Source of the DNA: a virus
Length of the DNA stretch: 40,514 nucleotides
Direction: 5' to 3' (one strand)
IMG/VR virus record: IMGVR_UViG_3300022602_000205
Span: 1 to 40,514 of that record
In this document: positions 9,060 to 39,150 of the stretch, piece by piece
Numbering within the stretch: position 1 is the first letter of the stretch
Layout: each line of letters starts with the position of its first letter
Notes under the pieces: model-generated
The model's input: only the letters and a program-made list of their open reading frames with translations
The model's database searches: none
What the model was told of the DNA's origin: nothing
Position numbers and translations under genes: made by a program

Positions 9060-12000
9060 ATGAGTTCAACCGCTAGACAAAACAACTTATTACTGGCAGA
9101 AGATTGGCAGAAAATTTATCAATCTTTCCGTAACGCAGACTTTCAAAGCTATGACTTTGATAACTTGCGTCGAACAATGATTGACTATATCCGTACAAAT
9201 TTTCCTGAAGATTTCAACGATTATATTGAGTCAAGCGAGTACTTGGCCCTTATCGACCTTATTGCATATATTGGTCAAAGCATAGCTTTCCGCGTTGATT
9301 TAAATGCTCGTGAAAATTTCTTAGAGCTAGCAGAGCGTCGTGAAAGTGTACTACGACTAGCAAGAATGATTAGTTATAATGCTAGTAGAAACGTACCTGC
9401 TAAGGGTTTATTAAAATTTAGCACAATACAAACTACAGAAAATGTATTAGACAGCAACGGTAGAAATTTATCTGGTCAATATATTACTTGGAACGATCCT
9501 AGCAATCCTAACTGGTATGATCAGTTTATTAAGATTTTAAATGCAGCATTCCCAACTACCCAACAGTTTGGGAGCCCGGCAGATAAAGGAACAATTTACG
9601 GAATCCCAACAGCACAGTATAGGTTTAATGCTACTAATTCAGATGTGCCTGTTTATGGATTTTCAAAGGCTGTTGCTGGTCGAGTAATGGACTTTGAAGT
9701 TACTAGTACAACATTTGCGAATCGTACTGAAATTTATGAAGAAGCACCGATGATTGGTAACAGTATTGCTTGTATATACAGCGATGACGGTTATGGCGCA
9801 GGTAGCCCAGGTACTGGTTTCTTTTTTAATTTCACACAAGGTACTTTAAATACCGGAACTTTTAATATTACAAATCCAAGTAGTAATGAGTCTGTTGATG
9901 TTGCTATACAGAATATCAACAATACAGACGTATGGTTATATGATGTAAATCAAAGCACAGGTCTTGAAAATGAATTATGGACACCGGTGTCAGCATTAAC
10001 AGGCAATAATATCATATACAATAACCTAAGTCAAAAAATTAAAAAAATCTATTCAGTAGTTACTAAAACAGGTGACACAATTTCTTTGGCGTTTGGTGAT
10101 GGTACATTCGGTCAACTACCGTTAGGTGCTTTTAGAGTATACTATAGAATTAGTAATGGATTACTATATACAATCAATCCAGCAGACATTATTAACGTGT
10201 CTATATCAATACCTTATACATCTTCACAAGGTCAAGTAGAAACATTAAAAATAGGTTTAAACTTAGCCACATCAGTTACTAATGCTACGCCAACTGAGAC
10301 AAACGCTAGTATTAAAACAAACGCACCACAGACATATTATACGCAAAACCGTATGATTACTGGAGAAGATTATAATATTAGTCCATTAAGTGCTAGCCTT
10401 CAAGTAGCAAAAGTTAAAGCAGTGAATAGAACAAGTAGCGGTATTAGTCGTTATTTTGATTTAACAGACCCAACGGGGAAATATAGTTCAACTAACCTAT
10501 TTGCTGATGATGGTATTGTATATCAACAAGATTATACCACAGGTACTAGTTTTACCTATGTAACACAAACTGATATTCAAGGTGTAATTGACAATAAGAT
10601 ATTATCTTTATTAGAAGATCCTAATCTTAGAAATTTTTATTATCAAAAATTTATTAACTATCTTACAACTAGTTTAAACATCTCTTGGAACGCAGTAACA
10701 ACCGATAGTAACAGCTCATCGGGATTTATTAGTGGCACTGGCACAGCAACTCCATACGCTGTAGGAACATACACATTAACTGATTTAAAATATGTAACTT
10801 CTAATGCGCTAATTAAATTTACAGCTCCAGCCGGCAAATATTTTGACATTAATAATAATAATGCTTTGGCATCCGGTTCACCAACAAAGCCAGGGCAAGT
10901 ACAATATTTGTGGGCCACAGTAGTTTCTGTTTTAGGAGACGGAACTGCTAACAGTGGAGGATTTGGACCAATAACTTTAAGTAAAGCAATTCCATCCACT
11001 GCCGTTGTATCACAAATTATTCCAGCATTTTCAACATCACTTAAATCAAGTGTTCAAACACAGATGATTGATTTAATATCTGCTAATGCTAGTTTTGGAT
11101 TAAGATACGATAGTGTGTTAAACAGTTGGAATATTATATTTGAAAATAATTTAAATGTCAGTAACAATTTTAGTCTAGAATATCAAGGCGATTTATCTAA
11201 TACACAAAAAGATGCTAGTTGGTTTTTATTATTCACGACCGACACTGAAACCTATACAATTACCACACGTTCACTTAGATATGTATTTGAAAGCGATAAA
11301 GAAGTAAATTTCTATTTTGATACAACTAATAAAATTTATGATGTTGTATCAAGCACTACTATTGTAGATCAAATAAAAATTTTAAATATTAATCCACAGC
11401 CAGATTTAACAGTGCCATTTACAATTAATTATAATTGGGAAATTGTTTCAGAATATATTGGGCAAGACGGTTATATAGATACTAAAAAAGTTATTGTAAC
11501 TTTTTCTGATCCTACAAATAGCGGAGTAGTTGACAATCCTCAAATGTTTTTAGACATTGTAGCACCGACAACTAATCCATTAAGTAAGTATATTGTACAA
11601 AAGAAATACGCCATCACACAAGGACAAGAAGACTATAAGTATGTCTTTAATGATCTACAAACTGGGCCAGTAATTATATTAAACAGTAAAAGTTCAGCCT
11701 ATCCGTTATCACAATGGACTGATGGTCAATATTTTTATTTTGTTGATGTTCAAACCGTATTCCAATATATTGCCTCAACTAGTACGTTATCACCAACATT
11801 AGATTATAAAGTTTATTCTGGAAGAGATAATTTACGATTCCAATATATTCATAGTGCTGATTATGATTCAAGAATTGATCCTGGATCCAGTAATATCATT
11901 GATTTGTATATTTTGACAAATAGTTATGATACAGAATTTAGACAATGGGTCGCTAACGGCGCTATTGTTGGTAACGAACCACTACCACCAAGTCAAGATT

Positions 12001-12518
12001 CTTTAAACAGTATGTTAGGAACTAATTTAAATTTAATTAAATCTATTTCAGATGAAATTATATATCACCCTGTAAACTATTTGCTATTGTTTGGAGCCGC
12101 TGCCGACCCAGCATTACAAGCAACATTTGAAGTTGTTATTAATCCTAATTCAGCAGTGAGTTCAGCGAATGTCAGCGCAAGAATACTAACAGCAATTAAT
12201 CAGTTTTTTGCTTTAGAAAACTGGGACTTTGGAGATACATTCTACTTTACAGAATTGTCAACATATGTAATGAATCAATTAGCACCAGATGTTACAAGTT
12301 TTGTTATCGTACCCAATCAAACCGGTCAATATTTTGGTAGTTTATTTGAAATACAGTGTCCGAGCAATTCAATATTTTTAAGTTGTGCTACAGCGGCAAA
12401 TATTCAAATTGTGTCTGGATTAACATCAACAAATCTTAAAACAGTTACAGGTACAGCACTAGCATCAGCGGCTACTAGCCAGCAGATCACCAGCGCAAAT
12501 TATGGGGCAAATAATTAA
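9060..12518 (+). CDS. 6: baseplate wedge protein gp6-like, enlarged
   Basis: Main ring-forming wedge protein. The N-terminus is clear: residues 36-120 contain YIRTNFPEDFNDYIESSEYL, LIDLIAYIGQSIAFRVDLNA, and ARMISYNASRNVPAKGLLKF, the gp6/baseplate-J-like signature. The C-terminal ~200 residues also fit: SDEIIYHPVNYLLLFGAAAD, then FFALENWDFGDTFYFTELST, and VPNQTGQYFGSLFEI, the part that dimerises in T4. The protein has 1152 residues against 660 in T4; the added length is in the middle, roughly 200-900, which is rich in Thr/Asn/Ser/Tyr beta-strand sequence and contains no domain I recognise. Its TAA overlaps the next ATG by one base (TAATG), so the giant gene is translationally coupled to it. 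Confidence 0.88.
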   Translation: MSSTARQNNLLLAEDWQKIYQSFRNADFQSYDFDNLRRTMIDYIRTNFPEDFNDYIESSEYLALIDLIAYIGQSIAFRVDLNARENFLELAERRESVLRLARMISYNASRNVPAKGLLKFSTIQTTENVLDSNGRNLSGQYITWNDPSNPNWYDQFIKILNAAFPTTQQFGSPADKGTIYGIPTAQYRFNATNSDVPVYGFSKAVAGRVMDFEVTSTTFANRTEIYEEAPMIGNSIACIYSDDGYGAGSPGTGFFFNFTQGTLNTGTFNITNPSSNESVDVAIQNINNTDVWLYDVNQSTGLENELWTPVSALTGNNIIYNNLSQKIKKIYSVVTKTGDTISLAFGDGTFGQLPLGAFRVYYRISNGLLYTINPADIINVSISIPYTSSQGQVETLKIGLNLATSVTNATPTETNASIKTNAPQTYYTQNRMITGEDYNISPLSASLQVAKVKAVNRTSSGISRYFDLTDPTGKYSSTNLFADDGIVYQQDYTTGTSFTYVTQTDIQGVIDNKILSLLEDPNLRNFYYQKFINYLTTSLNISWNAVTTDSNSSSGFISGTGTATPYAVGTYTLTDLKYVTSNALIKFTAPAGKYFDINNNNALASGSPTKPGQVQYLWATVVSVLGDGTANSGGFGPITLSKAIPSTAVVSQIIPAFSTSLKSSVQTQMIDLISANASFGLRYDSVLNSWNIIFENNLNVSNNFSLEYQGDLSNTQKDASWFLLFTTDTETYTITTRSLRYVFESDKEVNFYFDTTNKIYDVVSSTTIVDQIKILNINPQPDLTVPFTINYNWEIVSEYIGQDGYIDTKKVIVTFSDPTNSGVVDNPQMFLDIVAPTTNPLSKYIVQKKYAITQGQEDYKYVFNDLQTGPVIILNSKSSAYPLSQWTDGQYFYFVDVQTVFQYIASTSTLSPTLDYKVYSGRDNLRFQYIHSADYDSRIDPGSSNIIDLYILTNSYDTEFRQWVANGAIVGNEPLPPSQDSLNSMLGTNLNLIKSISDEIIYHPVNYLLLFGAAADPALQATFEVVINPNSAVSSANVSARILTAINQFFALENWDFGDTFYFTELSTYVMNQLAPDVTSFVIVPNQTGQYFGSLFEIQCPSNSIFLSCATAANIQIVSGLTSTNLKTVTGTALASAATSQQITSANYGANN

Positions 12519-15500
12519 TGGCAAATAGTAATATTCCAACTGGAAACGGTCTTAGCGTAAATTTATTACCAGATTTTTATCAAACTACTGCTAATAAAAA
12601 ATTCTTACAGGCTACGATTGATCAATTATATCAACCTGGAACGTTAACAAAAACAACCGGTTATATTGGAAGAAGAAACGCAAAGGCAGCATCTGGACCA
12701 GATGTCTATGTAGCTGCCGCTGACGCAACACGTCGCCACTATCAATTAGAGCCTGGTATAGTTGTTAAAGATCCATTAGGTAATGTAACATTTTTTAAAG
12801 ATTATATTGATTATATTAATCAGATAGGTGTGTTTGGTGGTATTACTTCAAATCACGAACGTCTGAACAAACAAGAATTTTATTCTTGGGATCCACATAT
12901 CGACTGGGACAAATTTGTTAATTTTCAAAACTATTATTGGTTACCTTATGGTCCAGATCCAATAAAAATTTATGGTCATGCTAAAGGTGTTACTAGCACA
13001 TACACAGTAAATTTACAATTACAAGGCGATGTTAACGAATATTTGTTTACTCCTAACGGAATAACATTAAATCCTATTCTTAAATTATATAGAGGACAGA
13101 CTTACACTTTTGAAATTACTAGCCCGGGACATCCTTTTAGTATTAAAACTTCTCGTTCATTGGGAGTTCAAAATAGATATTTGATTCCTGGTATTGATAA
13201 CCACGGCGTAACTGCTGGAACAATTACATTTACTGTTCCTGATAATGCTCCAAATATTCTCTATTACCAAAGCGAAGCTGATTTACAAGTTGGTGGGGTC
13301 ATCGAAGTATTTGATATTCTCGAGTCTTCAATACTCGATGTTGAGAATGATATTCTTGGTAAAAAGACCTACGTATTATCAGACGGAACACCATTAAGTA
13401 ATGGTATGAAAGTTAGTTTCGGCACTAATGTAACTCCTTCAAATTACTCTACAGGGCAGTATTATGTTGAAGGTGTTGGTACTGGAATTAAATTAATTTT
13501 AGAATCTCTTTTAGAAATTGTAAACCCGTATACAACTGACAAATCTGTTGAATTTGATACTACTCCTTTTGATATAGACCCATTTAGTGATAGTATTGGG
13601 TTTGCCGGAGTAAAAGATTATATTGTAATCAATCGTGCTAGTCGAGACCGTAATCCTTGGTCGAGATACAATCGTTGGTTCCATAAAGATGTAATTAATT
13701 CCATTGCGAAATATAATAATACAGTACCTAATCTTGATCAATCAGGTCGAGCTATTAGACCAATCATTGAATTTGAAGCAGATTTAAAATTATTTAATTT
13801 AGGTACAATCGCAACTGTAGACACAAGTTTAATTGATGATTATACAACTGATGTATTTTCTACAATTGAAGGATCAATAGGATATAGTGTCGATGGTGTT
13901 AAATTAGTAGCTGGACAAAAAATAATATTTACAGCAGATTCCGATCCACTAGTTAAGAATAAAACATTTGAAGTATCGTTTATTAATATAAAAGGTAAGT
14001 CGCAAATTCATTTAACTGAAGTATCGTCTCCGTTAGTAAATCAAACAACTATTGTCCTAGAGGGTATCAAGAATCAAAGTCAGATGTACTGGTTTGACGG
14101 CACTACTTGGATTAAAGGTCAGCAAAAAACAAATATTAATCAACAACCTAAATTTGATGTAGTTGATAATAACGGTACAAGTTTTGGCAATGTATCGGTT
14201 TATAGCGGTACAACATTTAGCGGTACTGACATTTTTTCTTATAAAATAAATTCTTCTAGTTCTAATAAAGATACTGCTTTAGGATTTCCGTTAACATATC
14301 AAAATGTTAATAATATCGGGGATATTGTTTTTACTTTTAATCTCGCCATTGATTCGTTTACCTACAAAGTTAATTCACAAGTAGTTACTAAAAAAATTAA
14401 TGTAGGTTATCTGTCAGGACAGTCATATGGGGGAAATACTGTTTATACTAACGGGTGGAAAACTGCTAAAACTACTAACGTACAGGCAGCCATTCGTATA
14501 TACAAAAATTCCAATTTAACAAATAATTTTAAATTAGATATCTTTGATGACATTAATAATCTTAATGACTTAGTAGTTCGAGTATATGTCAATGGTACTA
14601 AACTTTTACCTACTACCTACCAATTAGTTGATGCTGGAAAATATAAAGAAATTGTTCTTAACACTCCTATTTTAACTACCGATCTATTAACAATCAAAGC
14701 ATTTGCGGCACAGCCAATTAATACTAATGGCTACTACGAGATGCCTATTAATTTACAAAATAATTCGTTAAACGATGATATGGTTGATTTTACTTTAGGT
14801 GAAGTAATTGATCATGTTAATTCTATTGTAGATAATGTATCAGGGTTCTCAGGAGTATTTCCAGGAGTTAGCAATTTAAGAGACCTGGGAGATATTTCTG
14901 CTTACGGAACTAAATTTGTACAGCATAGCGGTCCACTAAGTCTAGCGATGTACCATATTGCTTCTGAATCAAATAATATTATAAAAGCAATTGAAACCAG
15001 TCGAGATGACTACAATACATTTAAGCGAAACTTTTTAACTGTAGCAGTATCATTAGGTGTTGATACAGATCCAGTTAAACATGTTGAATTAATTTTACAA
15101 GAACTTAATAGTAACAAACCAACTACCGCTCCATATTATTTTAGTGATATGGTTCCTTATGGAGCAAATACAACCAGCGATCTTAAAGTAGTAGATCCAA
15201 GAATTAAAACTTATCCATTAAGTAATGTATTTTCGTTAGATACATTATCTAATAAAGCAGTTGGTGTCTACCTAACATCAAACGGTGTAAAAACACAATT
15301 AGTATATGGAAGAGATTATACATTTAGTACTCAAGCAACTGTTATAATAGATAACAGTGTGGTAATGTTAGCCGGCGATATAATTACTACAATCGAGTAT
15401 GATACTACTGATGGATGCTTTGTGCCAATGACTCCTACTAAGTTAGGCATGTGGCCAGCATATGTTCCGCAAATTTATCTAGACACAACACTATCTGCCC

Positions 15501-18500
15501 CACAAAAGATGATCCAAGGGCACGACGGTAGTGTTATTTTAGCATACAATGATTATCGAGATGACTTAATATTAGAATTAGAAAAAAGAATTTTTAATAA
15601 TATTAAAGTCAAATATGATCCAGCAATATTTGATATAACTGATATTGTTCCTGGATATAATAGAACTACAGATTATAGCATATCAGAATTTAATCAAGTA
15701 CTAGCCCCAAGTTTTTATAAATGGACCGGGTTTGTAGGTGCTGATTTTAGTAAGCCGTTAAGTTACGACCGTGCGAACCCATTTACATACAACTATAAAA
15801 ATAATACTTCGCCAACCGATACTCCGGTTCCTGGTTATTGGAGAGGAATATATCGTTGGATGCTAGACACTGATCGTCCACATCTTTGCCCATGGGAAAT
15901 GTTAGGATTTAGCCAAGAGCCTCAATGGTGGAAACAAGTGTATGGTCCAGCGCCATATACTAGCAATAATTTAATCTTATGGCAAGATTTAACTAACGGT
16001 ATTGTTCGTGAACCAGGTGTTCCTTCTAAAATTTTACCAAAATATATCCGACCATTTTTGATAGATCACATACCTGTTGATGAATCAGGCAATTTAATAA
16101 GTCCTCTTTTGTCAGGACTTGCTTCCGGTACATTAACACCAGATACAAGTGATAATTTTATATTCGGTGATGTAAGTCCAGTTGAGTCAGCATGGAGACG
16201 TAGTAGCTATTATCCTTTCAGTGTAATTATTACATCCTTACTATTAACTCCAGCAAAAACATTTGGATTACTGTTAGATCGATCACGTATTGTTCGTAAT
16301 CTAGCAGGACAATTAATTTATAGTGATACTGGAATTCATGTTAAACCAGCAGACATAAAGATACCAAGCATCTATTCAAGTGCTGAAAGAGTACAAACTG
16401 CTGGTATAGTTAACTGGGTAGTTGATTTAATTTTAAATTATATTTTTAGTAATAATTTAAATTCATATCAAACATATGCTAATGACCTAGTAAATATGTT
16501 ACCTCAGTTGAGCTATAGAGTAGGCGCATTTACAAATAAAAATCAGTTTAATTTGTTATTAGAAAGCAAAACTCCATTATCAATAGGCAATGTATTCATT
16601 CCTCAAGAAGATTATAATATATTTTTAAACACATCAAGTCCGACAGCTAAGTTAACTTATAGTGGTGTAATTATTACTAAAGTACCAACTGGCGGATATG
16701 AGATAAAAGGTTATAGCAGAACACAACCATATTTTAAATATTATGCTCCTATACAATCAGGAATTTCTATTAATGTTGGTGGAATCTCAGAAAACTTTGT
16801 AACATGGAATGCCGGGTTGGAATATGCTGCCGGGCAGGTAGTAAAGTATGGTAATTCATTTTATAGAACAGTAACAACAGTTACGGCAGGTTCACCATTT
16901 AATCCTTTGTCATTTGCTTCGTTGGGTAGTTTGCCAATTGTTGGCGGAGTTAACGCACAATTTAGACAAGCATGGGATAAGACTACTGCTCTAGTATTAC
17001 CATACAGTACTGTGTTATCTACAGTTCAAGAAGTTGTTGATTTCTTATTAGGCTATGGTGAATGGTTAAAAGATCAAGGATTTAAGTTTGACGAATTTAA
17101 TAATAACTTAAACACTGTAGCAAACTGGGAAACCAGTGCTAAAGAATTTATGTTCTGGACTACTCAAAATTGGAGTTCAGGACAAGACAAGTGGAGCGAA
17201 TGGCTACCAAATCAACCATATAACTATGGAACTATTGTTCGTTACAATGGTGATTATTATAGCGCAGTTTATAATATACCAGCGTTGGATATTTTTGATA
17301 TTTCGCAATGGACATTATTAGCTGGGTTAAGTAATGTTGGTGCAAGTGTTATAAGTCTAAGCCCTGGCGCTAACGGGCTGACATTTGTAACTAAACTCAC
17401 AGTCGTTGACGACATTAATAATCAATTCAATCCATATGAAATATTTAAAGTTGACGGAACACCAATACATTCTAATCAATTAGATAGTTACAGAACAGGC
17501 AACACAGTTACATATAGTCCTCGAGGCAATGATGGAATTTATTGTGCTAGCTTCTACTTAATACAAAACGAACATGTTGTTATTATAAACAATACTGATA
17601 TTTTTAACGATGTTATCTATAGCCCGACTAGCGGATATAGAAGAGAACGTATTAAATTGTCAGCCTATGTTACTACCAACTGGTATGGTGGTTTAGATAT
17701 TCCCGGATTTATTTTTGATCAGGCGAGTATTAAAAGTTGGCAACCATGGCAAGATTACAGCATGGGAGATGTTGTAGTATTTCAAGGATATTATTACAGC
17801 GCCAATTCATTTATTGCGGGTACATCTGCGTTTATGTCAGCAGACTGGACACAGTTGGCTAATAAACCTACCCCCCAGATACTGCCAAACTGGACTAATA
17901 TTGCTACACAATTTACAGACTTTTATAGTCTAGATGTTGACAGTGTTGATAGTGCCCAGCAAACAATGGGTCAGCATTTGATTGGATACCAAAAACGTCA
18001 GTATTTGAATAACATCATCCAAGACGATGTAAGCGAATTTAAATTCTTCCAAGGCATGATCCGTGAAAAAGGTACACAAAATGTCCTTAATAAATTGTTT
18101 GGGGTATTAAACAATGACTCAGCAGAAAGTTTGACTTTCTACGAAGAATGGGCGTTGCGTGTTGGCGAATACGGCGCATCTAGCGCATTTGAAAATATCG
18201 AATTTATTTTAGATGAAAAATTAGTTAAAAATAATCCACAAGGTATTGTATTAACACCTAGAATTAATAATAATATTAGCTCATTCTTAATACAACAATC
18301 ACCAAACGATGTATATTTAAAACCACTAGGATATAATTCTAATCCGTTTCCTGTTTTACAAAATTATCGTCCTTTGTTGAGAACTGCAGGCTATGTTAAT
18401 TCTGATGATGTAACATTTAGCCTAGGATCGATAGCTGATATTACTAGCCAAGATATAACTAAATTATCAAACGGCCAATATGTATGGTGTGCGTTTGAAG

Positions 18501-21500
18501 GTGCAAGTTGGAACATTTATAAATTTACAGACTTGTTGATTCGAGTAACTGGGGTTACTTACGATAGTAGTTCAAACACTGTAACAATTTCTACAGAAAA
18601 TATAGTACCACTTGCTGTTGGATCATATGTTGGGCTAGCACAAGTTTCTATTTTAAATGGATTTTATAAAGTAACTAGTGTAACATTAAATCAATTTACT
18701 ATATCAGCAACTATAGCAAACTTCCCAGTACCGTTTGCTCAAGCAGAACAGTTAGTAGTTTTTGGATTGCTTACACAACATGTTACTGGGTCAATTGACA
18801 ATCTTGATACATTAAATTTAAATCGTATAGCACCTGGCACACTAGTTTGGATTGACGATAGTGTTAATGGCAAGTGGGCATCATGGAAATATAATCCAAT
18901 CTATACTACTAAAACATTTGATACCTTTGATCAACAAGATGGACTTGCCTATGGTTCGGCTATGGCAATAAATGGCCAGGGTAATATTTTAGTAATCGGT
19001 AACTCTATCGGAACAGTTACAGTATATGATAGACCTGGTATTAAATTAAATTGGTCACAACGTATTGGTTTATCGCGTCCTTTTATTGCGTTTAATAATC
19101 AAGTACTACCAAGCCAAGTAGCTACAGTTTTAGCACTAAGCAATGATGGTACATGGCTAGCAGTAGGAAGTCCTACCGCAGGATATGCCGCAACCACTTG
19201 GAATCTTCAACGTAATAATGGTCAATATGATTTAGGAACATACAATACTAATGATATTGTGTTGTATAATCAACAGTATTATCAAGCAGTAACATCAGTA
19301 CCAGCAAACACAGCACCAGCAACTAATTCTATCTATTGGGAAAAAATTCCATATGTAGCAGTTGATCAAGTATCTGGGTCTAATTCAACTCTAGCAGGAC
19401 AAGGTGTTATTAGTTTATATAAAAAGGAACTTAATAACAGTTACACATTAGTTGAAACTATAGTAAGCCCAACTCCATCCGCTAATGAAAATTTTGGATC
19501 AGCAATTGCCTTTGGCAATAATACGATGTATGTTGCTGCATCTGGCTATAGTAGTAATACTGGTAGAGTTTATAAATTATCTTATAGTGTAACGCCTATT
19601 GTTAACGCGGCTTATAATCCTGTTGGTAGTAGTTCATCAACGCTAGTTGTTTCATCAACTGCTGGAATTAAAGCAGGCATGGTAGTAATTGGTAGCGGAT
19701 TTACTAAAGGACAAAAAGTATTTTCAGTCTTGACTAAGATTGTTTTTAATTTTAGCACTAATTTGTCAAAAGTAGTTGCTGGAATGACAATCACAGGTAC
19801 CGGAGTTCTTCCAAACTTTACAGTTGTTAGAGTTGGATCAGAAGTGTCATCGTCTAATATAACTACAAACTATGTTATCGCTCAAGGTTTCCAAAATATG
19901 GACACTAGTATAACACAGGTTGAATTTGGTGGAAATGCTTCATTGACTTTTGTAATTCAATCAATTGAAAATATAAACACAGTATTACTTGACAGCACTC
20001 CTGACAGCACACCAAGCGGATCTTTAGAATTTGCCTTAGCCGGTTGGGGATATGATTCGACTGAACTATATACAGGGGCTACTACAGGTAGCAATCTTGG
20101 AAGCTCAATTACTACTACCCAGGCCAATGATACGCTAGTTATTGCGTCTTCTGGAGGATCAGTTACTGGCACAGTTAGCATTTATAAAAATACAGGAACA
20201 GGTTTTACTCTCTTAGAATCTAAAACAGGAACTACTACTAATTTTGGTCAAAGTATTGCTTTATCAAATACAGGTTTGTATCTTGCCATAGCAGATGATA
20301 TAATTAGTACTCCGACAATTAGTCGTCAGGGAACGGTTGTTGTTTACAATTATACTGGAACAGGATATGCCAAGTATCAAGAACTAGTAAATCATAGACC
20401 AGAAACCGACGGACAATTTGGTAATAAAATTTCGTTCATGAACGACTATGACACGCTAGTAGTGTATAGTAAAAATGGAGATGTAACTAGTAGCACGTTG
20501 TTTGATGCTAATACAACACGTCTTTCTAATAGTCAAACATTATTTGGAAATCCATATGTTCTTGATGGAACATCAGCAGTTCATCCTCTTACAACTTTTG
20601 ATAAAAATTCTACATCATTTATAGTCAATGAGCAAAACAACGGCCGTGTTGATGTATATGATATGTATAATACAAAATGGGTATTCAGTGAAAGTCTATC
20701 AACTGATACACAGTTCCGCACTGGATATGGCAAGAGTGTTGTCGCTGGAAATAATCATATCCTAGTAAGCGAGCCATATGCTGTAGATGGAAATTATCGT
20801 TCAGGAATTATATATGACTATGGTAAATTACCTAACACATATTCTTGGACTATTGATCGTCAAGAAGTAGATTTGCCAGATGTTTCTAAAATTAAAAAAG
20901 CATTCTTATACAATAAATCTTCAGGAAAATTATTAAAATATTTAGATGTAATTGATCCGCTACAAGGAAAAATTGCTGGTCCTGCTGAAGAAGAAATCAA
21001 ATATAAAACATTTTATGATCCAGCAAGATATTCTCAAGGAACTGCTAGCGTAATCATTAATCCTGATAATCACTGGGCTGATCAACAAGTTGGTCAACTA
21101 TGGTGGAATTTAAGCACAGCTAAATTTTTAAATACACAATTTAACGATCCTGTATATAGAAACAATACATGGAATACATTAGCCACAGGTGCTAGTATTG
21201 ATATTTACGAATGGATATCTAGCAGTCTGTTGCCAAGTCAGTGGGATTCTCAAGCAGATACTCCAAGTGGTCTAGCAAAAGGTATCAGTGGTACAAGTTT
21301 ATACGGTGATACTGCTTACAGTGTTATACAAAAATATGATAACATAAGCAAGAAATTCATTAATACATATTTTTATTGGGTTAAAAATAAAAAAGTTATA
21401 CCAAATGTCAACGGCAGAAATATGGCTGCAAATGACGTTGCTAAACTGATAGCCGATCCTCGAGGACAGGCTTATGTTTGTTTAGCGATTACAGGCACGA

Positions 21501-24500
21501 ATTCTCTTAGTTTAATCAATGCTGGTCAATATTTAAAAGATACAGATGTAGTGCTATCTATCGAATATTGGACTATTGATAAAACAGATCAAAATGCTCA
21601 CACACAATGGAAATTAATTAGTAATGATACTATTGTTAATATTCCAGATAACATTGAACAAAAGTGGTTTGATAGTTTATGCGGCGCCGATCAAGCAGGT
21701 CGTGAAGTTCCGGATATTACTTTACCTCCTAAGTTGCGTTACGGTATTGAGAATCGCCCACGTCAAGGAATGTTTGTAAATCGTATTGAAGCATTGAAAG
21801 AATTCTTTGAACGAGTAAATGCTGATTTGATAACTCAACAAATCTGTGAATCAAAAGATATTTCAAATTTAGAAAAATTTGATCCAGTTCCAACAAAGAT
21901 TTCTGGAATGTTTGATTTAACATTTGACACTAATGACGAACTTCAGTATGCTAATGTTGGAACATTCACATTACCAAAATTAACACCGATAATTACTAAT
22001 GGCGTGATTACAGGCATCAATATCATCGATGGCGGAAAAGGATACGTTAATGCTCCATTCATTGAAATTTCAGGTGCTGGTAAAGGTGCCGTTGTTAAAT
22101 CAATAATCAACTCGATTGGCACATTAACTGGTGCTACAATTATTAATGGTGGCGAAGGATATACTGATAGTACCTTATGTACTGTACGAAGCTACTCTGC
22201 TTTGATATTATCTGATAGCACTTCAAATTATACTTGGAGTATATATTCATATGATTCAACAAATCATATTTGGTCTAGAACATTAACATTATCATACGAT
22301 GTTCGCAACTATTGGAAAAAAGTTGACTGGTATGGATCTTATACAGATTCCTCAGGAAAAATAATATTTACAGCAACACAATTTACTGCGGCGGATTATA
22401 CAGTTAATACATTTGCTGATTTAAATTCTTTAACAGATATATATTCTGAATTAGCAAATATTAAATCTAAATCAACTGGACAACTGGTTAAAGTTCTTAA
22501 TGGCAATGCCGGCAAGTGGGTTCTGTTGTATAGATATTCTACAGCAGTATCAGTTGACTGGACACAAACATATTATGTTGTTGGTATCCAAGAAGGAACA
22601 ATACAATTTAGCAATAGATTATACAGCTACCAAGGAACCGATGTTGGATATGATTCAAACGTATTTGATGGTGGTGAATTTGACATTCAAGCTAGAACAG
22701 AATTAAGAATTATCTTAAACACTCTTAAAGATAAAATTTTAATTGACGATCTCAAACAAAATTATTTAGATTTATTCTTCACAAGTGTTCGTTATGCTCA
22801 TAGCGAACAACCTTATATTGACTGGATATTTAAAACTAGTTTTGTTCGTGCTACTCATAACGTTGGATCATTTACACAACCAGTTAATTATCCAGTTGAT
22901 AATTTAAGTAATTTCCAAGATTACATTAATGAAGTTAAACCTTATAGAACTAAGGTAAGAGAATATATTAGTCAATATACTAATTCAGCAGTTCCTGACA
23001 ATAGTCCTAGTGCTATAACTGATTTTGATCTACAACCAAATTATGAAAATAATAAAATTGTACCAATTAATACAGTATATTCAAATAACCAGGTTACGTC
23101 ATCGGATCCAGCTATCCAGTTATATCCATGGAAATTTTGGCTTGACAATGTAGGTTTTGGAGTAGTTGATATAATAATTACTAACCAAGGTAGCAATTAT
23201 TTAACTCCACCGACTATACGTATCATTGGTGCTAGCGGTTCCGGAGCAGAGGCTAAGGCTTATATTACTAACGGAAAAGTGAATAGAATATCACTGATTA
23301 CTAATGGAACGGGTTATCTTTCAGCACCAAGAGTAATATTTGATGGTGGACTAGCAGTTGGAGGAACACCAGCTACCGGCGTGGCTATTATCGGAAATAG
23401 TGTTATTCGTTCTAATTTGATCGGTATGAAGTTTGATCGCGTAGATCAAACATATTATATTAACACACTTTCACAAACTGAAACATTTACGGGTTCAGGA
23501 TCACGATTACAGTTTCCATTAATTTGGGCTCCAGATGTTCGTGTTGGTGAATCAAGTGTAACATTTAATGGTGTGCCTGTCCTTAGAGAACTATACAAAT
23601 TAACGGTTGTTAAAACTAAGGTTTCGGGATATACACAATATTCAGGAAGTATTACATTTAATGTTGAAGCAACACCTCCAAAGAATACAACAGTTGTAGT
23701 AAATTATAAAAAAGATATTAGCATCTTAAATGCTACTGATAGAATACAATATTATTATAATCCTACATCTGGACAATTAGGTAAAGATTTATCGCAACTA
23801 ATGACAGGAGTTGACTACGGTGGAGTAGTTGTTAACGGTTTAGGATTTAACGTTAGCGGCGGCTGGGATGTAAGTCCTTTCTTAAGTGAAACATGGGACA
23901 GTAGAGATCCAACATTTGATGATTATTTTGTTCAAGTAGGAGCAAATAATCATGTATTTGTATTGCCGTATACTCCGGCAAATAATACAAGTATTAACAT
24001 TTATTATATAAAGAAAAATATCATATCATATAATTCAGATAATGCTACTACTAAGTATGAATTTGATCTTAATTGGTTAACACCGAGTGTTAATGTAACT
24101 ATCCCTGTAAATACAATTGGTATTCATACTACCTACACAGGGTCAAGTGTTGTTAATCCAGGAACCTTACTCAATGTTAATAGTACAACAGGCATCGTTC
24201 CTGGCATGGTGTTATCTGGATCAGGATTTAATAACAGACAAACAGTTGTTAGAGTTATTAATTCAACAACTATTAGTATTAGCAGTCCGCCAGATTCTAT
24301 TCCTTCTGGTTCTATAACATTTTCTAATATTGCCGGTAGCAATGTATTATCAGTAGCTAGCCTAACTGGTTTAAAGGTTGGCGATATTGTAACGGCTGCT
24401 GGATCAATATTTAATTTTGAAACAACTATTGCCGGTATTAATTTAACTGATGGCCATATTACATTAGACCAAATCATACTAACTAATATTCCAGATAATA

Positions 24501-27337
24501 CTACTATTACATTTACAAGAACACTAGTCGAGCCAACAGATGTAATTATTAATAGTAATGGTTCTATTTTATTATCAGAACCATATCCGACAGGAACCAC
24601 AATTAATATTACAGGAACATCTGCTCCTTTAAGATTAGATGATCCTTATTATAATTTATATGACGGCACAACAGTACAACCAAACGGAAGAAAATCTGCT
24701 CCAGCAGGCACAATTATGGCAACTCCGGTTGTTGGACAGTCTGTAATAACAGATTCAATAGATGGCGGTGCCGCCCTAATTGTTTCATTTGCTACAGTTG
24801 ACGATGGCGGTACAGCTGGATCAACATTTATAGATGCGATCGACGGTACAACAACTAATAACGCAATTACAAATGTTATCGAGATTCCTGATACGTTTGT
24901 TGTAAACAGCGGTGATGAGTTTATTTTAAGACAAAGCACTAGTGACGGATCAATACCAATACCTGATACTGATTTTGACACAGCAATTTCAGGCGGTGAC
25001 ATTTCATACTCAACAGCAACAGGTTTAGCCGCTGACGATATTGTTCTTGACGGCGACGGTTTTACAACACCAACAAGTAGTCCAGCACCAGAAGAAGTTG
25101 TGCCAGGACAAGTAGTTGATACACTAGCAGTTAAAGTATTTGATCGAGCACAATCAGGATCGGCTGATATTCGTGTTAATAGCCATATAACTGACGGAAT
25201 TACTAATAAATTTTCAATCGGACAAATTCCTAATAGTTTAAGATCTGTAATTGTTAAACTTGGAGTATCGATAAAAACTTATGGTACTTTAGCAGATTAT
25301 ACAATTGATTATTCTAATGGTTTAGTGATTTTTAATTCTACACCAACTGCTAATCAAATCGTTAGCATATATAGTATTGGATTTAATGGAAGCAATATTT
25401 TAGATATCGATCATTATGTGGGCGATAACCGCACTGTTGAATTTATAACTAAAGCTAGCTGGATAACACCTGTAACAAGTCTAGTATATGTAGATGGCAT
25501 AGCAACATCGGTTGAATTATTTAAAACTGATAGTTCTTATGATTTTACCGGGGCCATTGGAATAAGATTTGCTGTTCCACCGGCTGCAGGAAAACTAATC
25601 AATTATATTATTGTTAGTGGAAGCCAACAAAAGTTTGCTATAACAAAAACAGAAACAGTACCAACTGATGGCAGATCAGCCAGTGCACCTTACACACTAC
25701 AATACCCAATCGGTAATTCTTTACCAAACGAATCAAGTATGATAGTGCGTGTTGATCAAAACATTTTACAAGCACCAAATAACAGTTATTTCACAATCTC
25801 TAATAATAAACTGACTTATACGATTGACCCAACAAAAGCATTACCTGGCACACAGGAAGTTAGTAATATTTTTGTTTATGCTAACGGTGATCTGTTAGTT
25901 GTTGGTAGAGACTATACAGTTGACCCATCTGGGATTTCTGTTAAGATTAATAAAAATACATATAACCAATACTCTGGAGGTAAACTGTTAGTTAGCCTAG
26001 CTGGTAAATCTGGTTATACATATAATCAAAATACTGGACAAATTACATTTGCGCAGTCTTATGACAATACGCACACAGTTGAAGTAATTAGTTCTTACAT
26101 CCATGATGTTCTCGATATTCAACGAACATCAATAGTTTATACATCTTCTGTATCATTAACTCCAGATACTGTTGAGTTTTATACATATAATGAAATCGGC
26201 GGGGGTATAATACATTTAGATCGTCCTATTATTAACAATCAATATGTTTGGGTAACTAAAAATACAACTTTATTAACGCCAAGTATTGATCATAAACTAA
26301 ACGAAGACCTTCAAACAATTACTCTATCTAAACCGTTAGCAGTAAACGATACTATTACATTGATGACCTTTGGTAGTAATGTGTTACCAGCATCTGGTAT
26401 TTCTTATATGATGTTTAAAGATATGTTAAATCGTGTAACTTATAAACGATTAAATCTTAATAAGAGAACTAGACTTGCTGAAGACTTGCGCTGGAATGAT
26501 ACGACTATTACAGTTGACGATGCTAGTAATTTAGATGTACCAAATAAAACTAATAATCGCCCAGGTATTATTGAAATCCGAGGAGAACGTATCGAATACT
26601 TTACACTTAACGGAAATGTATTAGGACAGCTACGCAGAGGAACATTAGGAACTGGGGTTTATAATTTAAATAGATCAGGTACATATGTACAAGGCATTGG
26701 AGCAAGTGAAACAATACCTTACAATGATACTGTTACAACAGAATTAATTACTTCAAGTGGCGGCACAAATATTGACCTTGGGTTTGTTCCAGCTAATGCT
26801 AATGAAATAGAAGTATTTGTTGGCGGATATAATTCTTTAGGTGACTGGAAACCAAATACATCTTATTCATTGGGTGATATTGTAAATATTGGACCATACA
26901 CGTATAGATGTACAACAGCTAATACTAGTTCGTCAGTGTTTGAAAAAGATCAGGCAAATTGGCATTGGTTCGTTGGAAACATTCGTTTAAAGAAACAAGC
27001 ATACAGTGTGTTTAATATAAACAATGGTCCATATAGTCCTACTGGTGACGTTAGCTTCCCAGCAGATTTTACTGTTGATGGAACCACTGCTAAGATAACA
27101 TTAACCAATCCATTAAGTTTTGGTACAAGAGTAACAGTAGTAAAACAAACTGGTATAGCATGGGATAGTATTACTAACATCTTAAATGATACTGGATCTA
27201 TTGCTAATTTTATTAAAGCCGCTCCAGGCGTATGGTATACTGAGTATAAGACAATAAGTAATACAAAGGGTGCGTCAACATTTGACAGCGCAACTAACAC
27301 GTTTGACAGTGGAAATTCAACATTTGATCAAGGATAA
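12518..27337 (+). CDS. giant 4939-residue baseplate/tail protein at the gp7 position, multidomain
   Basis: One uninterrupted frame of 14.8 kb. It follows gp6 where T4 has gp7 (1032 residues), and the N-terminus (FYSWDPHIDWDKFVNFQNYYWLP after ~125 residues, split here only in description) looks like a wedge anchor; gp7 homology itself is inference. Domains by eye: cupredoxin-like, ~168-268 (GQTYTFEI, PGHPFSIKT, ILYYQSEADLQVGG). CBM5/12-like modules at ~1429-1478, 1550-1603, 1739-1784, 2226-2278, 4774-4819. Seven-bladed FG-GAP-like propeller, ~2140-2775, with two insertions. GxGY repeats, ~3157-3217 and 3546-3610, flanking a segment with PYIDWIFKTSFVRATHNVG and EVKPYRTKVREYIS. GMVxxGSGF-type modules, ~2366-2510 and 3875-3940. 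Near the C-terminus TITVDDASNLDVPN and IIEIRGERIEYF, then three TFD units. No signal peptide or enzyme motif is seen. Base use resembles the neighbours. Structural role is likely; receptor or polysaccharide binding is inferred. Confidence 0.8.
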   Translation: MANSNIPTGNGLSVNLLPDFYQTTANKKFLQATIDQLYQPGTLTKTTGYIGRRNAKAASGPDVYVAAADATRRHYQLEPGIVVKDPLGNVTFFKDYIDYINQIGVFGGITSNHERLNKQEFYSWDPHIDWDKFVNFQNYYWLPYGPDPIKIYGHAKGVTSTYTVNLQLQGDVNEYLFTPNGITLNPILKLYRGQTYTFEITSPGHPFSIKTSRSLGVQNRYLIPGIDNHGVTAGTITFTVPDNAPNILYYQSEADLQVGGVIEVFDILESSILDVENDILGKKTYVLSDGTPLSNGMKVSFGTNVTPSNYSTGQYYVEGVGTGIKLILESLLEIVNPYTTDKSVEFDTTPFDIDPFSDSIGFAGVKDYIVINRASRDRNPWSRYNRWFHKDVINSIAKYNNTVPNLDQSGRAIRPIIEFEADLKLFNLGTIATVDTSLIDDYTTDVFSTIEGSIGYSVDGVKLVAGQKIIFTADSDPLVKNKTFEVSFINIKGKSQIHLTEVSSPLVNQTTIVLEGIKNQSQMYWFDGTTWIKGQQKTNINQQPKFDVVDNNGTSFGNVSVYSGTTFSGTDIFSYKINSSSSNKDTALGFPLTYQNVNNIGDIVFTFNLAIDSFTYKVNSQVVTKKINVGYLSGQSYGGNTVYTNGWKTAKTTNVQAAIRIYKNSNLTNNFKLDIFDDINNLNDLVVRVYVNGTKLLPTTYQLVDAGKYKEIVLNTPILTTDLLTIKAFAAQPINTNGYYEMPINLQNNSLNDDMVDFTLGEVIDHVNSIVDNVSGFSGVFPGVSNLRDLGDISAYGTKFVQHSGPLSLAMYHIASESNNIIKAIETSRDDYNTFKRNFLTVAVSLGVDTDPVKHVELILQELNSNKPTTAPYYFSDMVPYGANTTSDLKVVDPRIKTYPLSNVFSLDTLSNKAVGVYLTSNGVKTQLVYGRDYTFSTQATVIIDNSVVMLAGDIITTIEYDTTDGCFVPMTPTKLGMWPAYVPQIYLDTTLSAPQKMIQGHDGSVILAYNDYRDDLILELEKRIFNNIKVKYDPAIFDITDIVPGYNRTTDYSISEFNQVLAPSFYKWTGFVGADFSKPLSYDRANPFTYNYKNNTSPTDTPVPGYWRGIYRWMLDTDRPHLCPWEMLGFSQEPQWWKQVYGPAPYTSNNLILWQDLTNGIVREPGVPSKILPKYIRPFLIDHIPVDESGNLISPLLSGLASGTLTPDTSDNFIFGDVSPVESAWRRSSYYPFSVIITSLLLTPAKTFGLLLDRSRIVRNLAGQLIYSDTGIHVKPADIKIPSIYSSAERVQTAGIVNWVVDLILNYIFSNNLNSYQTYANDLVNMLPQLSYRVGAFTNKNQFNLLLESKTPLSIGNVFIPQEDYNIFLNTSSPTAKLTYSGVIITKVPTGGYEIKGYSRTQPYFKYYAPIQSGISINVGGISENFVTWNAGLEYAAGQVVKYGNSFYRTVTTVTAGSPFNPLSFASLGSLPIVGGVNAQFRQAWDKTTALVLPYSTVLSTVQEVVDFLLGYGEWLKDQGFKFDEFNNNLNTVANWETSAKEFMFWTTQNWSSGQDKWSEWLPNQPYNYGTIVRYNGDYYSAVYNIPALDIFDISQWTLLAGLSNVGASVISLSPGANGLTFVTKLTVVDDINNQFNPYEIFKVDGTPIHSNQLDSYRTGNTVTYSPRGNDGIYCASFYLIQNEHVVIINNTDIFNDVIYSPTSGYRRERIKLSAYVTTNWYGGLDIPGFIFDQASIKSWQPWQDYSMGDVVVFQGYYYSANSFIAGTSAFMSADWTQLANKPTPQILPNWTNIATQFTDFYSLDVDSVDSAQQTMGQHLIGYQKRQYLNNIIQDDVSEFKFFQGMIREKGTQNVLNKLFGVLNNDSAESLTFYEEWALRVGEYGASSAFENIEFILDEKLVKNNPQGIVLTPRINNNISSFLIQQSPNDVYLKPLGYNSNPFPVLQNYRPLLRTAGYVNSDDVTFSLGSIADITSQDITKLSNGQYVWCAFEGASWNIYKFTDLLIRVTGVTYDSSSNTVTISTENIVPLAVGSYVGLAQVSILNGFYKVTSVTLNQFTISATIANFPVPFAQAEQLVVFGLLTQHVTGSIDNLDTLNLNRIAPGTLVWIDDSVNGKWASWKYNPIYTTKTFDTFDQQDGLAYGSAMAINGQGNILVIGNSIGTVTVYDRPGIKLNWSQRIGLSRPFIAFNNQVLPSQVATVLALSNDGTWLAVGSPTAGYAATTWNLQRNNGQYDLGTYNTNDIVLYNQQYYQAVTSVPANTAPATNSIYWEKIPYVAVDQVSGSNSTLAGQGVISLYKKELNNSYTLVETIVSPTPSANENFGSAIAFGNNTMYVAASGYSSNTGRVYKLSYSVTPIVNAAYNPVGSSSSTLVVSSTAGIKAGMVVIGSGFTKGQKVFSVLTKIVFNFSTNLSKVVAGMTITGTGVLPNFTVVRVGSEVSSSNITTNYVIAQGFQNMDTSITQVEFGGNASLTFVIQSIENINTVLLDSTPDSTPSGSLEFALAGWGYDSTELYTGATTGSNLGSSITTTQANDTLVIASSGGSVTGTVSIYKNTGTGFTLLESKTGTTTNFGQSIALSNTGLYLAIADDIISTPTISRQGTVVVYNYTGTGYAKYQELVNHRPETDGQFGNKISFMNDYDTLVVYSKNGDVTSSTLFDANTTRLSNSQTLFGNPYVLDGTSAVHPLTTFDKNSTSFIVNEQNNGRVDVYDMYNTKWVFSESLSTDTQFRTGYGKSVVAGNNHILVSEPYAVDGNYRSGIIYDYGKLPNTYSWTIDRQEVDLPDVSKIKKAFLYNKSSGKLLKYLDVIDPLQGKIAGPAEEEIKYKTFYDPARYSQGTASVIINPDNHWADQQVGQLWWNLSTAKFLNTQFNDPVYRNNTWNTLATGASIDIYEWISSSLLPSQWDSQADTPSGLAKGISGTSLYGDTAYSVIQKYDNISKKFINTYFYWVKNKKVIPNVNGRNMAANDVAKLIADPRGQAYVCLAITGTNSLSLINAGQYLKDTDVVLSIEYWTIDKTDQNAHTQWKLISNDTIVNIPDNIEQKWFDSLCGADQAGREVPDITLPPKLRYGIENRPRQGMFVNRIEALKEFFERVNADLITQQICESKDISNLEKFDPVPTKISGMFDLTFDTNDELQYANVGTFTLPKLTPIITNGVITGINIIDGGKGYVNAPFIEISGAGKGAVVKSIINSIGTLTGATIINGGEGYTDSTLCTVRSYSALILSDSTSNYTWSIYSYDSTNHIWSRTLTLSYDVRNYWKKVDWYGSYTDSSGKIIFTATQFTAADYTVNTFADLNSLTDIYSELANIKSKSTGQLVKVLNGNAGKWVLLYRYSTAVSVDWTQTYYVVGIQEGTIQFSNRLYSYQGTDVGYDSNVFDGGEFDIQARTELRIILNTLKDKILIDDLKQNYLDLFFTSVRYAHSEQPYIDWIFKTSFVRATHNVGSFTQPVNYPVDNLSNFQDYINEVKPYRTKVREYISQYTNSAVPDNSPSAITDFDLQPNYENNKIVPINTVYSNNQVTSSDPAIQLYPWKFWLDNVGFGVVDIIITNQGSNYLTPPTIRIIGASGSGAEAKAYITNGKVNRISLITNGTGYLSAPRVIFDGGLAVGGTPATGVAIIGNSVIRSNLIGMKFDRVDQTYYINTLSQTETFTGSGSRLQFPLIWAPDVRVGESSVTFNGVPVLRELYKLTVVKTKVSGYTQYSGSITFNVEATPPKNTTVVVNYKKDISILNATDRIQYYYNPTSGQLGKDLSQLMTGVDYGGVVVNGLGFNVSGGWDVSPFLSETWDSRDPTFDDYFVQVGANNHVFVLPYTPANNTSINIYYIKKNIISYNSDNATTKYEFDLNWLTPSVNVTIPVNTIGIHTTYTGSSVVNPGTLLNVNSTTGIVPGMVLSGSGFNNRQTVVRVINSTTISISSPPDSIPSGSITFSNIAGSNVLSVASLTGLKVGDIVTAAGSIFNFETTIAGINLTDGHITLDQIILTNIPDNTTITFTRTLVEPTDVIINSNGSILLSEPYPTGTTINITGTSAPLRLDDPYYNLYDGTTVQPNGRKSAPAGTIMATPVVGQSVITDSIDGGAALIVSFATVDDGGTAGSTFIDAIDGTTTNNAITNVIEIPDTFVVNSGDEFILRQSTSDGSIPIPDTDFDTAISGGDISYSTATGLAADDIVLDGDGFTTPTSSPAPEEVVPGQVVDTLAVKVFDRAQSGSADIRVNSHITDGITNKFSIGQIPNSLRSVIVKLGVSIKTYGTLADYTIDYSNGLVIFNSTPTANQIVSIYSIGFNGSNILDIDHYVGDNRTVEFITKASWITPVTSLVYVDGIATSVELFKTDSSYDFTGAIGIRFAVPPAAGKLINYIIVSGSQQKFAITKTETVPTDGRSASAPYTLQYPIGNSLPNESSMIVRVDQNILQAPNNSYFTISNNKLTYTIDPTKALPGTQEVSNIFVYANGDLLVVGRDYTVDPSGISVKINKNTYNQYSGGKLLVSLAGKSGYTYNQNTGQITFAQSYDNTHTVEVISSYIHDVLDIQRTSIVYTSSVSLTPDTVEFYTYNEIGGGIIHLDRPIINNQYVWVTKNTTLLTPSIDHKLNEDLQTITLSKPLAVNDTITLMTFGSNVLPASGISYMMFKDMLNRVTYKRLNLNKRTRLAEDLRWNDTTITVDDASNLDVPNKTNNRPGIIEIRGERIEYFTLNGNVLGQLRRGTLGTGVYNLNRSGTYVQGIGASETIPYNDTVTTELITSSGGTNIDLGFVPANANEIEVFVGGYNSLGDWKPNTSYSLGDIVNIGPYTYRCTTANTSSSVFEKDQANWHWFVGNIRLKKQAYSVFNINNGPYSPTGDVSFPADFTVDGTTAKITLTNPLSFGTRVTVVKQTGIAWDSITNILNDTGSIANFIKAAPGVWYTEYKTISNTKGASTFDSATNTFDSGNSTFDQG
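18935..20845 (+). repeat. seven FG-GAP-like propeller blades encoded within the giant gene
   Basis: Seven units repeat the pattern FGxSIAxSxxGxxLxVG...GxVxVYxx. They start near bases 18950 (YGSAMAINGQGNILVIG), 19121 (VATVLALSNDGTWLAVG), 19490 (FGSAIAFGNNTMYVAAS), 20092 (LGSSITTTQANDTLVIAS), 20239 (FGQSIALSNTGLYLAIA), 20414 (FGNKISFMNDYDTLVVYS) and 20721 (YGKSVVAGNNHILVSEP). Blade 2 holds a CBM5/12-like insertion, and a GMVxxGSGF-type insertion separates blades 3 and 4. Seven is the blade number of integrin-alpha-type propellers. Confidence 0.6.
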
Positions 27338-27342
27338 TAAAG

Positions 27343-28437
27343 ATGTCGCAACAATTAATTAACGTAGGATCATCAACTAATGATGGTACCGGAGATAGTT
27401 TACGCAGTGGTGCTGTAAAAATAAATGCTAATTTTACAGAATTATATTCGCAAGTTGGATATACACTGCCGTCAGCTACTGCTTCAGCTATAGGCGGTGT
27501 GGCAATTCCGTCTGTAGCAACTAGCGGTCTTAATAATACTAATGGAGTGATTAGTCTTGCTACAGCATCAACTAGTCAGTTAGGAGGAGTTAAAGTAGAT
27601 GGAACAACTGTTACTATTAGTAACGGTGTTATAAGTGCTCCAGCGGCATCACCATATACACTACCAACAGCATCGACTAGTATTAAAGGCGGTGTTAAAG
27701 TAGATGGAACAACTATTACCATTGACGGAAATGGTGTTATTAGTAGCGGTGTTAATAATTATATTTTGCCAGTAGCGACTACTTTACAACTAGGCGGAGT
27801 TAAAGTCGATGGTTCTACTATTACAATTAATGCCGGTGTAATTTCAGCTAATTATTCTTCTTATAATTTACCAACTGCAAGTACAACACAGTTAGGCGGT
27901 GTTAAGATTGATGGAACTACAATTACATTAAATGGTAGCAATCAACTAGTTGCTACTGCGTACAGTTTACCAACAGCAACTACATCTGTATTAGGCGGAG
28001 TTAAAGTCGACGGGTCGACAATTACAATCAGTGGCGGTACTATCAGTGCTAACGGGTTAAGTAATCGCTCAACTGTGTCAACAACTACAGCAAGTATCAC
28101 AGCTACTTCTAGCGCAACGGCAACAGTCGCAGCCGCTAAAGGTTATGCTTTGTATAGCATCCAAGTATCGGCAGGTGCGTGGGTCACAGTTTATACAAGT
28201 TCAACTGCGCAAAGTAATGATGCCAGCAGAAGTATATCAATGGATCCGACTCCAGGTAGCGGAGTGATTGCTGAAGCGATATCTACAACAGCAACTACAA
28301 CTTATTTTACACCTGCTGTATACGGATACAATGCTGATAATAGTCCTACTACAAATATGTATTTGAAAATTTATAATAACAGCGGTAGTACTACTGCTAT
28401 CACAGTTACAGTAACATATCTTAAATTAGAAGCATAA
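27343..28437 (+). CDS. tail fibre protein with five LGGVKVDGTTITI repeats
   Basis: Fibre of 364 residues. The N-terminus LINVGSSTNDGTGDSLRSGA followed by VKINANFTELYSQVG is the attachment motif common in fibres of T4-like aquatic phages. Residues ~50-235 are about 34-residue repeats with the core GGVKVDGTTITI...NGVISA. The C-terminal ~130 residues (YALYSIQVSAGAWVTVYTSS, then DPTPGSGVIAEAI, then YLKIYNNSGSTTAITVTVTY) form a separate beta domain that I recall from other marine phage virion proteins. It starts five bases after the giant gene stop with AAGG ahead of the ATG, and its stop is one base before the peptidase ATG. Likely a trimeric shaft with a tip domain; receptor unknown. Confidence 0.72.
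   Translation: MSQQLINVGSSTNDGTGDSLRSGAVKINANFTELYSQVGYTLPSATASAIGGVAIPSVATSGLNNTNGVISLATASTSQLGGVKVDGTTVTISNGVISAPAASPYTLPTASTSIKGGVKVDGTTITIDGNGVISSGVNNYILPVATTLQLGGVKVDGSTITINAGVISANYSSYNLPTASTTQLGGVKIDGTTITLNGSNQLVATAYSLPTATTSVLGGVKVDGSTITISGGTISANGLSNRSTVSTTTASITATSSATATVAAAKGYALYSIQVSAGAWVTVYTSSTAQSNDASRSISMDPTPGSGVIAEAISTTATTTYFTPAVYGYNADNSPTTNMYLKIYNNSGSTTAITVTVTYLKLEA
27583..28030 (+). repeat. five in-frame ~100-bp fibre repeats
   Basis: The GGVK(V/I)DG(T/S)T core begins at bases 27583, 27688, 27793, 27895 and 27994, i.e. spacings of 105, 105, 102 and 99 bases, all multiples of three. A degenerate sixth unit (AIGGVAIPSV) precedes them. The DNA diverges at third positions while the protein is kept, so this is a selected coding repeat rather than a fresh duplication. 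Confidence 0.85.
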
Positions 28438-38799: not shown

Positions 38800-39150
38800 A
38801 TGGACGAAAAAATCGAAAAAGCATTTGCTGTAGCCAATTATATGTCTACGTTATCAAACCAACGTAGAATCATTTTGGAAGAGTATACTCAAAAATTAGT
38901 ATACTACATCAACGGCGCAACATTTAAAATCACTCCTGAATTAATTAATTTTACTAAGACAGTACTTGATCTTGGTTATACTGATGATGTGGCGTTTGTT
39001 GACTCAAATACTTTTCCAGTAGTAATTAGCGATGTCCAACAATTCTTTGATAATATTACTTCAATTTATTTTGAAGCCACAAACGAATATGCCGCTCGAT
39101 ATGCTGATTTAAAAAGTAAAAGAAAAATAGCAGATATTGTAGAACTATGA
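38800..39150 (+). CDS. small protein of unknown function, upstream of glycosyltransferase-like genes
   Basis: A 116-residue, mostly helical, charged protein (MDEKIEKAFAVANYMSTLSN, then RRIILEEYTQKLVYYINGAT, PELINFTKTVLDLG, NEYAARYADLKSKRKI). It has no signal peptide, membrane segment or catalytic motif. I have a faint memory of similar short conserved proteins in cyanophage-like myoviruses, without known function. It starts at ATG 38800 behind a sigma70-type promoter and overlaps the next gene by four bases (ATGA), so the two are probably co-translated. Confidence 0.7.
   Translation: MDEKIEKAFAVANYMSTLSNQRRIILEEYTQKLVYYINGATFKITPELINFTKTVLDLGYTDDVAFVDSNTFPVVISDVQQFFDNITSIYFEATNEYAARYADLKSKRKIADIVEL

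Follow-up and report, generated by a model that had tools for sequence, protein, structure and literature searches.

A predicted seven-bladed propeller of FG-GAP/integrin-alpha type as an accessory domain in a giant virion protein of uncultured jumbo phages

Propellers are common protein-protein scaffolds. In integrins, the B-C and D-A loops of the propeller form the ligand face, which accommodates the alpha-I domain between blades 2 and 3, and the A-B hairpins bear the calcium motif DxDxDG. Among phages, gp131C of the Pseudomonas myophage phiKZ (4GBF) is described as a seven-bladed propeller at the baseplate periphery, and the receptor-binding protein Gp45 of phi11 as a baseplate beta-propeller platform with a proposed GlcNAc site (PMC4901313). 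Phage CBB is reported to have the Kelch propeller proteins CBB_550, CBB_552 and CBB_554, one of which was found in virions (PMC5259590). Beta-propeller lectins are mentioned for injection-system fibres in a text without FG-GAP or integrin (PMC12923769), and passages of a further paper deal with toxin export systems (PMC3482391). Full-text searches, which covered few subscription papers, turned up no report of a phage baseplate protein with a propeller of FG-GAP/integrin type. Baseplate propellers are thus known already, in phiKZ gp131C and phi11 Gp45, and the FG-GAP/integrin type is apparently unreported there.

The sequence studied here is a 40.5-kb virus record (IMGVR_UViG_3300022602_000205), all 40,514 nucleotides of which are called the window below. 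The virus is a bacteriophage of a jumbo lineage related to Atu_ph07, PA5oct and RaK2, and its propeller is encoded in the following neighbourhood:

8572-9006: gp25-like gene, upstream, assigned by reading the sequence
9060..12518, + strand: gp6-like baseplate wedge gene, directly upstream of the giant ORF (PHROG 10646, E 1.9e-301)
12518..27337, + strand: giant virion/baseplate protein carrying the propeller (single ORF, 4939 aa)
27343..28437, + strand: next gene after the giant ORF, with a T4 gp9/10-like N-terminal domain

The giant protein matches PHROG 10938 with E=0, a family of virion structural proteins that is filed under head and packaging as well, and its gp6-like neighbour matches 68 phage records (tblastn). 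PF07880 (T4_gp9_10_N) was found in 27343..28437 with an E-value of 3.2e-6 and 27.8 bits, against a cut-off of 25, and several genes further downstream encode fibre-like proteins, one of which has a tail-collar domain. The order gp6-like, giant, gp9/10-like is that expected of T4 gp7. In T4, gp7 and gp8 lie between gp6 and gp9/10, so the giant stands at the gp7/gp8 position, and judging from gene order it may be the gp7 equivalent. Profile searches of PDB gave no gp7 among the sequence matches of the giant protein, and the AlphaFold2 model of its conserved core (residues 960-1949) was of low confidence (pLDDT 57, pTM 0.36). The giant protein probably belongs to the tail tip. The baseplate location proposed in the initial annotation agrees with the two lines of evidence that back it, the gene order and the mass-spectrometry detection noted in the record of the PA5oct homologue.

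Other features of this neighbourhood were also observed. A match to PHROG 460, a head-closure family, at 21881-22267 (residues 3122-3250 of the giant, E 4.5e-13) conflicts with the baseplate gene order. The gene that follows the gp9/10-like one, at 28439-30079 (+ strand) among the tail genes, codes for a protease resembling subtilases and sedolisins (Peptidase_S8, E 1.8e-14), to which a pro-kumamolisin activation domain is joined (Pro-kuma_activ, E 2e-10), and in Phosso an S8 peptidase also lies near a minor tail protein. By eye, two consecutive genes at 39147-40512 resemble nucleotide-sugar-type glycosyltransferase genes, the first having no Pfam match at E 0.01.

The region at 18935-20845, corresponding to residues 2140-2776 of the giant protein, had been described as a seven-bladed FG-GAP-like propeller with seven repeat copies and two inserted domains. 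AlphaFold2 modelled residues 2100-2826 from an alignment of 52 rows with a pLDDT of 88.1 and a pTM of 0.82, and the pLDDT was at least 90 at 525 of the 727 residues. The strand list of the model gave seven blades of four strands each, with an extra strand at residues 2130-2134 ahead of blade 1. The blades, delimited by these strands, and the modules inserted in them are:

18959..19072, + strand: blade 1 (residues 2148-2185; model 49-86)
19127..19462, + strand: blade 2, interrupted (residues 2204-2315)
19172..19402, + strand: CBM5/12-like insert of blade 2, set in its B-C loop (residues 2219-2295)
19493..20074, + strand: blade 3, interrupted (residues 2326-2519)
19589..20044, + strand: GMVxxGSGF-type insert of blade 3, set in its C-D hairpin (residues 2358-2509, AlphaFold2 model)
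19757..19954, + strand: nested insert of ~66 residues splitting the GMVxxGSGF module (module profile halves and alignment)
20096..20227, + strand: blade 4 (residues 2527-2570)
20252..20383, + strand: blade 5 (residues 2579-2622)
20417..20698, + strand: blade 6, with an extra hairpin and a long loop (residues 2634-2727)
20738..20863, + strand: blade 7 (residues 2741-2782)

The propeller extends beyond the described end at residue 2776, as far as residue 2782 (nt 20863). Seven repeats are borne out by the seven blades of the model. Strict matching found three FGxSIA-like and five GxVxVY-like strands, and a profile of the repeat based on 51 relatives, with the window excluded, found six units (7.2-36.1 bits) and missed repeat 6. 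With 200 shuffles of the region, the same profile returned 108 domains, the best at 7.1 bits, so the weakest unit is at noise level. The long loop of blade 6 (residues 2660-2691; model 561-592) is partly of low confidence (pLDDT <50), and TTFDxxxTTFDK-like repeats were seen both in this loop (20417-20698) and at the extreme C-terminus of the giant protein (27275-27337).

When the model was compared with known structures by VIA-align, integrin alpha chains made up all 50 matches listed, aligned end to end with Z-scores of 29.9-33.2, the best being 5e6s_C (Z 33.2; 14% identity and an rmsd of 3.3 A over 351 residues; model residues 28-674). In a viral structure library the matches included FG-GAP proteins encoded by giant viruses and by uncultured phages, and also the hemagglutinin protein of Atu_ph07. 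In the window, residues 2100-2826 gave a weak FG-GAP_2 (PF14312) score of 22.8 bits, the cut-off being 23, and the profile matched 42 of the 52 relatives at E <= 0.05, with a best E-value of 9.1e-22. A closed propeller with seven blades, as proposed from the repeats, agrees with the confident model and the end-to-end integrin alignment, and its FG-GAP type with the integrin fold match and the profile matches in relatives. As a predicted structure, a closed seven-bladed propeller of FG-GAP/integrin-alpha type at residues ~2130-2782 is well supported. The DxDxDG calcium loop was found in 0 of 364 A-B loops (52 rows); because of this absence the domain is classed as an integrin-type propeller and not as an integrin, and true integrin identity was dropped.

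The module in blade 2 lies in the B-C loop, as the initial annotation had placed it, and forms three extra strands in the AlphaFold2 model, but its likeness to Pfam CBM_5_12 (PF02839) amounts to 15.9 bits, under the gathering cut-off of 26.2. The whole giant protein passes this cut-off, its best stretch being residues 4777-4806. For the GMVxxGSGF module, initially placed between blades 3 and 4, the model gives a position inside the C-D hairpin of blade 3. Because its profile aligns to the window as separate halves, at 19604-19756 and at 19955-20050, a second insert is nested in it, and the columns of this nested insert are filled in about two of every ten rows of the alignment. The two insertions first described are therefore both present, but one is itself split, and the long loop of blade 6 has to be added to them. 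A further copy of the GMVxxGSGF module lies at 24161-24331 in the same giant protein.

Relatives of the propeller region are encoded on 443 IMG/VR stretches, 80 of which were kept for comparison. Match coordinates were available for 83 loci; exclusion of L090, with eight stops, left 82 plus the window. A 90% identity threshold brought these down to 55, and exclusion of the partial loci L060, L080 and L089 to 52 rows, of which 50 served for loop counts (L042 and L085 excluded). The B-C and D-A loops were taken as the top, ligand face and the A-B and C-D loops as the bottom, by loop type from integrin knowledge. Insertions of at least 20 aa were found at 9 of 27 loops (50 rows), at 7 of 13 B-C/D-A loops versus 2 of 14 A-B/C-D loops, a marginal difference (Fisher p 0.046) with a threshold set post hoc. 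The most constant insert is the GMVxxGxGF module, located on the bottom face, and 49 of the 50 rows have a long 3c-3d loop, the one in which it lies. By loop length, 5 of these rows have no blade-2 module (a loop shorter than 25 aa), 20 have a single one and 25 an enlarged one. Absence of insertions from some relatives, a check proposed in the initial annotation, is supported.

Individual loci illustrate how the inserts differ. L014 and L015 are without the blade-2 module and carry a GTTDFTxIGAS module ahead of blade 7; L008 and L063, which are 84% identical, are set apart by one module of ~70 residues in blade 3; and between L032 and L044 the difference is a segment inside the CBM-like module. 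A segment of ~70-80 residues, helical in appearance, was seen within the blade-2 CBM-like module of L044 (9001-11091) and L037 (9001-11082). On the tree of the downstream flank, insert states changed four times at site A, five at nested site D, once at site E and once at 4C-4D, and the blade-2 module, in three loop-length classes, changed eight times. With one to eight changes per site, the modules appear mostly clade-inherited with some turnover, and rampant module shuffling was rejected.

The propeller changes faster than its surroundings. Among 17 related pairs, which were hand-picked and are not all independent, as are the 14 pairs used below, the mean identity of the propeller was 82.4% versus 88.0% for the next 700 residues, and the propeller was the lower in 15 of 17; the 1000 residues before it had a mean of 86.3% (16 pairs). 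Its fastest part was the blade-2 module, with 72.2% identity versus 84.5% for the strands (lower in 13 of 14 pairs). A hypervariable ligand face was also considered: over 50 rows, loop entropy was higher on the top face than on the bottom (2.09 versus 1.73 bits), but in the 14 close pairs the top loops were not more divergent (lower in 5 of 14, p 0.38), which makes the hypervariable-face argument weak, and it was rejected.

In 50,697 phage records the propeller region had no match (tblastn, E 1e-5), and the stretches before and after it matched 74 and 60 records, respectively. No propeller was found at this site of the giant protein in the six cultured relatives examined (PBECO4, Vibrio phage 2.275.O, PA5oct, SCTP-2, Atu_ph07 and Phosso), where the propeller profile matched the downstream flank or short stray stretches only. 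Between the matched flanks lie ~77 aa in PBECO4, 180 in 2.275.O, 320 in PA5oct, 400 in SCTP-2 and ~1520 in Atu_ph07, with a similar length in Phosso. In all four of the cultured relatives without a propeller that were compared, homology picks up again at residues 2773-2787, where blade 7 ends; a candidate N-terminal boundary motif, W..D..GxW, did no better than shuffled sequence in each of four cultured phages and was discarded. As far as sequence comparison goes, the propeller is shown to be an accessory domain in a conserved wedge-associated protein, between stretches shared with propeller-less relatives.

A search led by Atu_ph07 reached more distant loci. Of 594 relatives 80 were kept, redundant loci included, and 69 of these had an in-frame downstream flank. 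A propeller was detected by profile in 41 of the 69, another four showed at least three repeat units only, and 24, Atu_ph07 included, were without a propeller. In L143, L151 and L171 the giant frame is longer than 5700 aa and runs off the end of the locus, with ~1500-1700 aa between the flanks. Atu_ph07 and Phosso both have FG-GAP_2 repeats elsewhere in the genome; of the 42 FG-GAP_2 matches in Phosso (PV764938.1), most fall in a pair of neighbouring hypothetical proteins at 48338-68978 (frames of 3182 and 3702 aa).

Considering these results, we propose, with roughly even confidence, that the propeller is an outward adhesion platform on the baseplate, presenting loops and beta modules to surface ligands. 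In this model the domain would be displayed outside the baseplate, and its rigid blades would present their loops and the plugged-in CBM5/12-like and GMVxxGxGF modules to cell-surface ligands, most likely glycans, contacted at adsorption. Lineages could then alter binding by gain, loss or nesting of modules and leave the blades undisturbed. Ligand binding by the propeller is what we infer here. The propeller fold, the lectin-like module, the loop-directed insertions and the quick change fit such an adhesion platform. Against it stand the top loops, no more divergent than the bottom ones in close pairs, the marginal insertion test, the bottom-face position of the most constant insert, the CBM5/12 score below its cut-off and the missing calcium motif. 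A docking platform for phage proteins fits nearly as well.

That second explanation, in which the propeller holds short fibres, collar-domain or gp9/10-like proteins and binds no host molecule, is a realistic if doubtful possibility. The gp9/10-like and fibre-like genes next downstream speak for it, as do the 21 invariant columns of the blade core over 52 relatives and the nearly constant loop bearing the GMVxxGxGF module, as expected of a fixed interface; however, the CBM-like module changes fast, and cultured relatives with gp6-like neighbours manage without a propeller. Unrelated material of such different lengths at the same site (~77 aa in PBECO4 to 1520 aa in Atu_ph07), and the presence of the modules elsewhere in the giant protein, would also be expected if the propeller were a bulk spacer or decoration in a permissive site, its sizes and modules drifting neutrally. 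We regard this as improbable, given that the invariant blade core is kept while inserts change, and that a detectable propeller is kept in most of the 69 distant relatives. It is more improbable still that the propeller is of WD40 or another type (e.g., lactonase-like) and not of FG-GAP/integrin type. SSU processome proteins of WD40 type headed the Foldseek rows (E 1.1e-10), ahead of integrin alphaV-beta3 (E 2.3e-8), and the WD40 profile matched 12 of 52 relatives (best E 2.8e-5), but FG-GAP_2 matched far more of them with a far better best E-value, and the VIA-align matches listed were integrins throughout. In the window, WD40 gave no row at E <= 0.05, with HMMER filters that drop weak matches.

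If the adhesion platform is true, loop-module content should predict binding specificity in widespread uncultured jumbo phages. A tentative and somewhat unlikely extension is that this large uncultured jumbo myophage lineage carries an integrin-like adhesion head in a baseplate wedge protein, with a fixed core of seven blades and the upper loops as sockets for exchangeable modules, both glycan-binding and beta ones, so that host range would evolve by plugging in modules and not by swapping tail-fibre tips.

Several described systems resemble this locus in part. The proteins CBB_550, CBB_552 and CBB_554 are likewise propellers in a RaK2-like jumbo phage, but of Kelch type and encoded by separate genes. 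FG-GAP proteins of the same lineage, namely a 409-aa frame of Atu_ph07 annotated as hemagglutinin and frames of 3702, 3182, 429 and 398 aa in Phosso, are encoded elsewhere, outside the wedge-associated giant. The PHROG 10938 giants of Atu_ph07, PA5oct and the PBECO4/RaK2-like phages are homologous in both flanks, mostly at 24-33% identity, whereas their site is without a propeller. Gp45 of phi11 is also a beta-propeller platform on a baseplate, but has five blades and is a separate trimeric receptor-binding protein of a siphophage. By its description, phiKZ gp131C shares the seven blades and the myophage baseplate; in contrast, its propeller is the C-terminal domain of a separate protein, and here it is embedded in a giant wedge-associated protein. 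That gp131C was outside the 50 matches listed in either PDB comparison is uninformative either way. The integrin alpha propeller (5e6s, 1jv2) shares the seven-bladed fold end to end (Z ~30-33) and the FG-GAP-type repeats, but identity is 14-17% and the phage copy sits in a virion protein that is not known to have a partner beta subunit. The alpha-I domain of integrins is an insert in an upper-face loop, and the phage propeller likewise has a domain inserted in such a loop.
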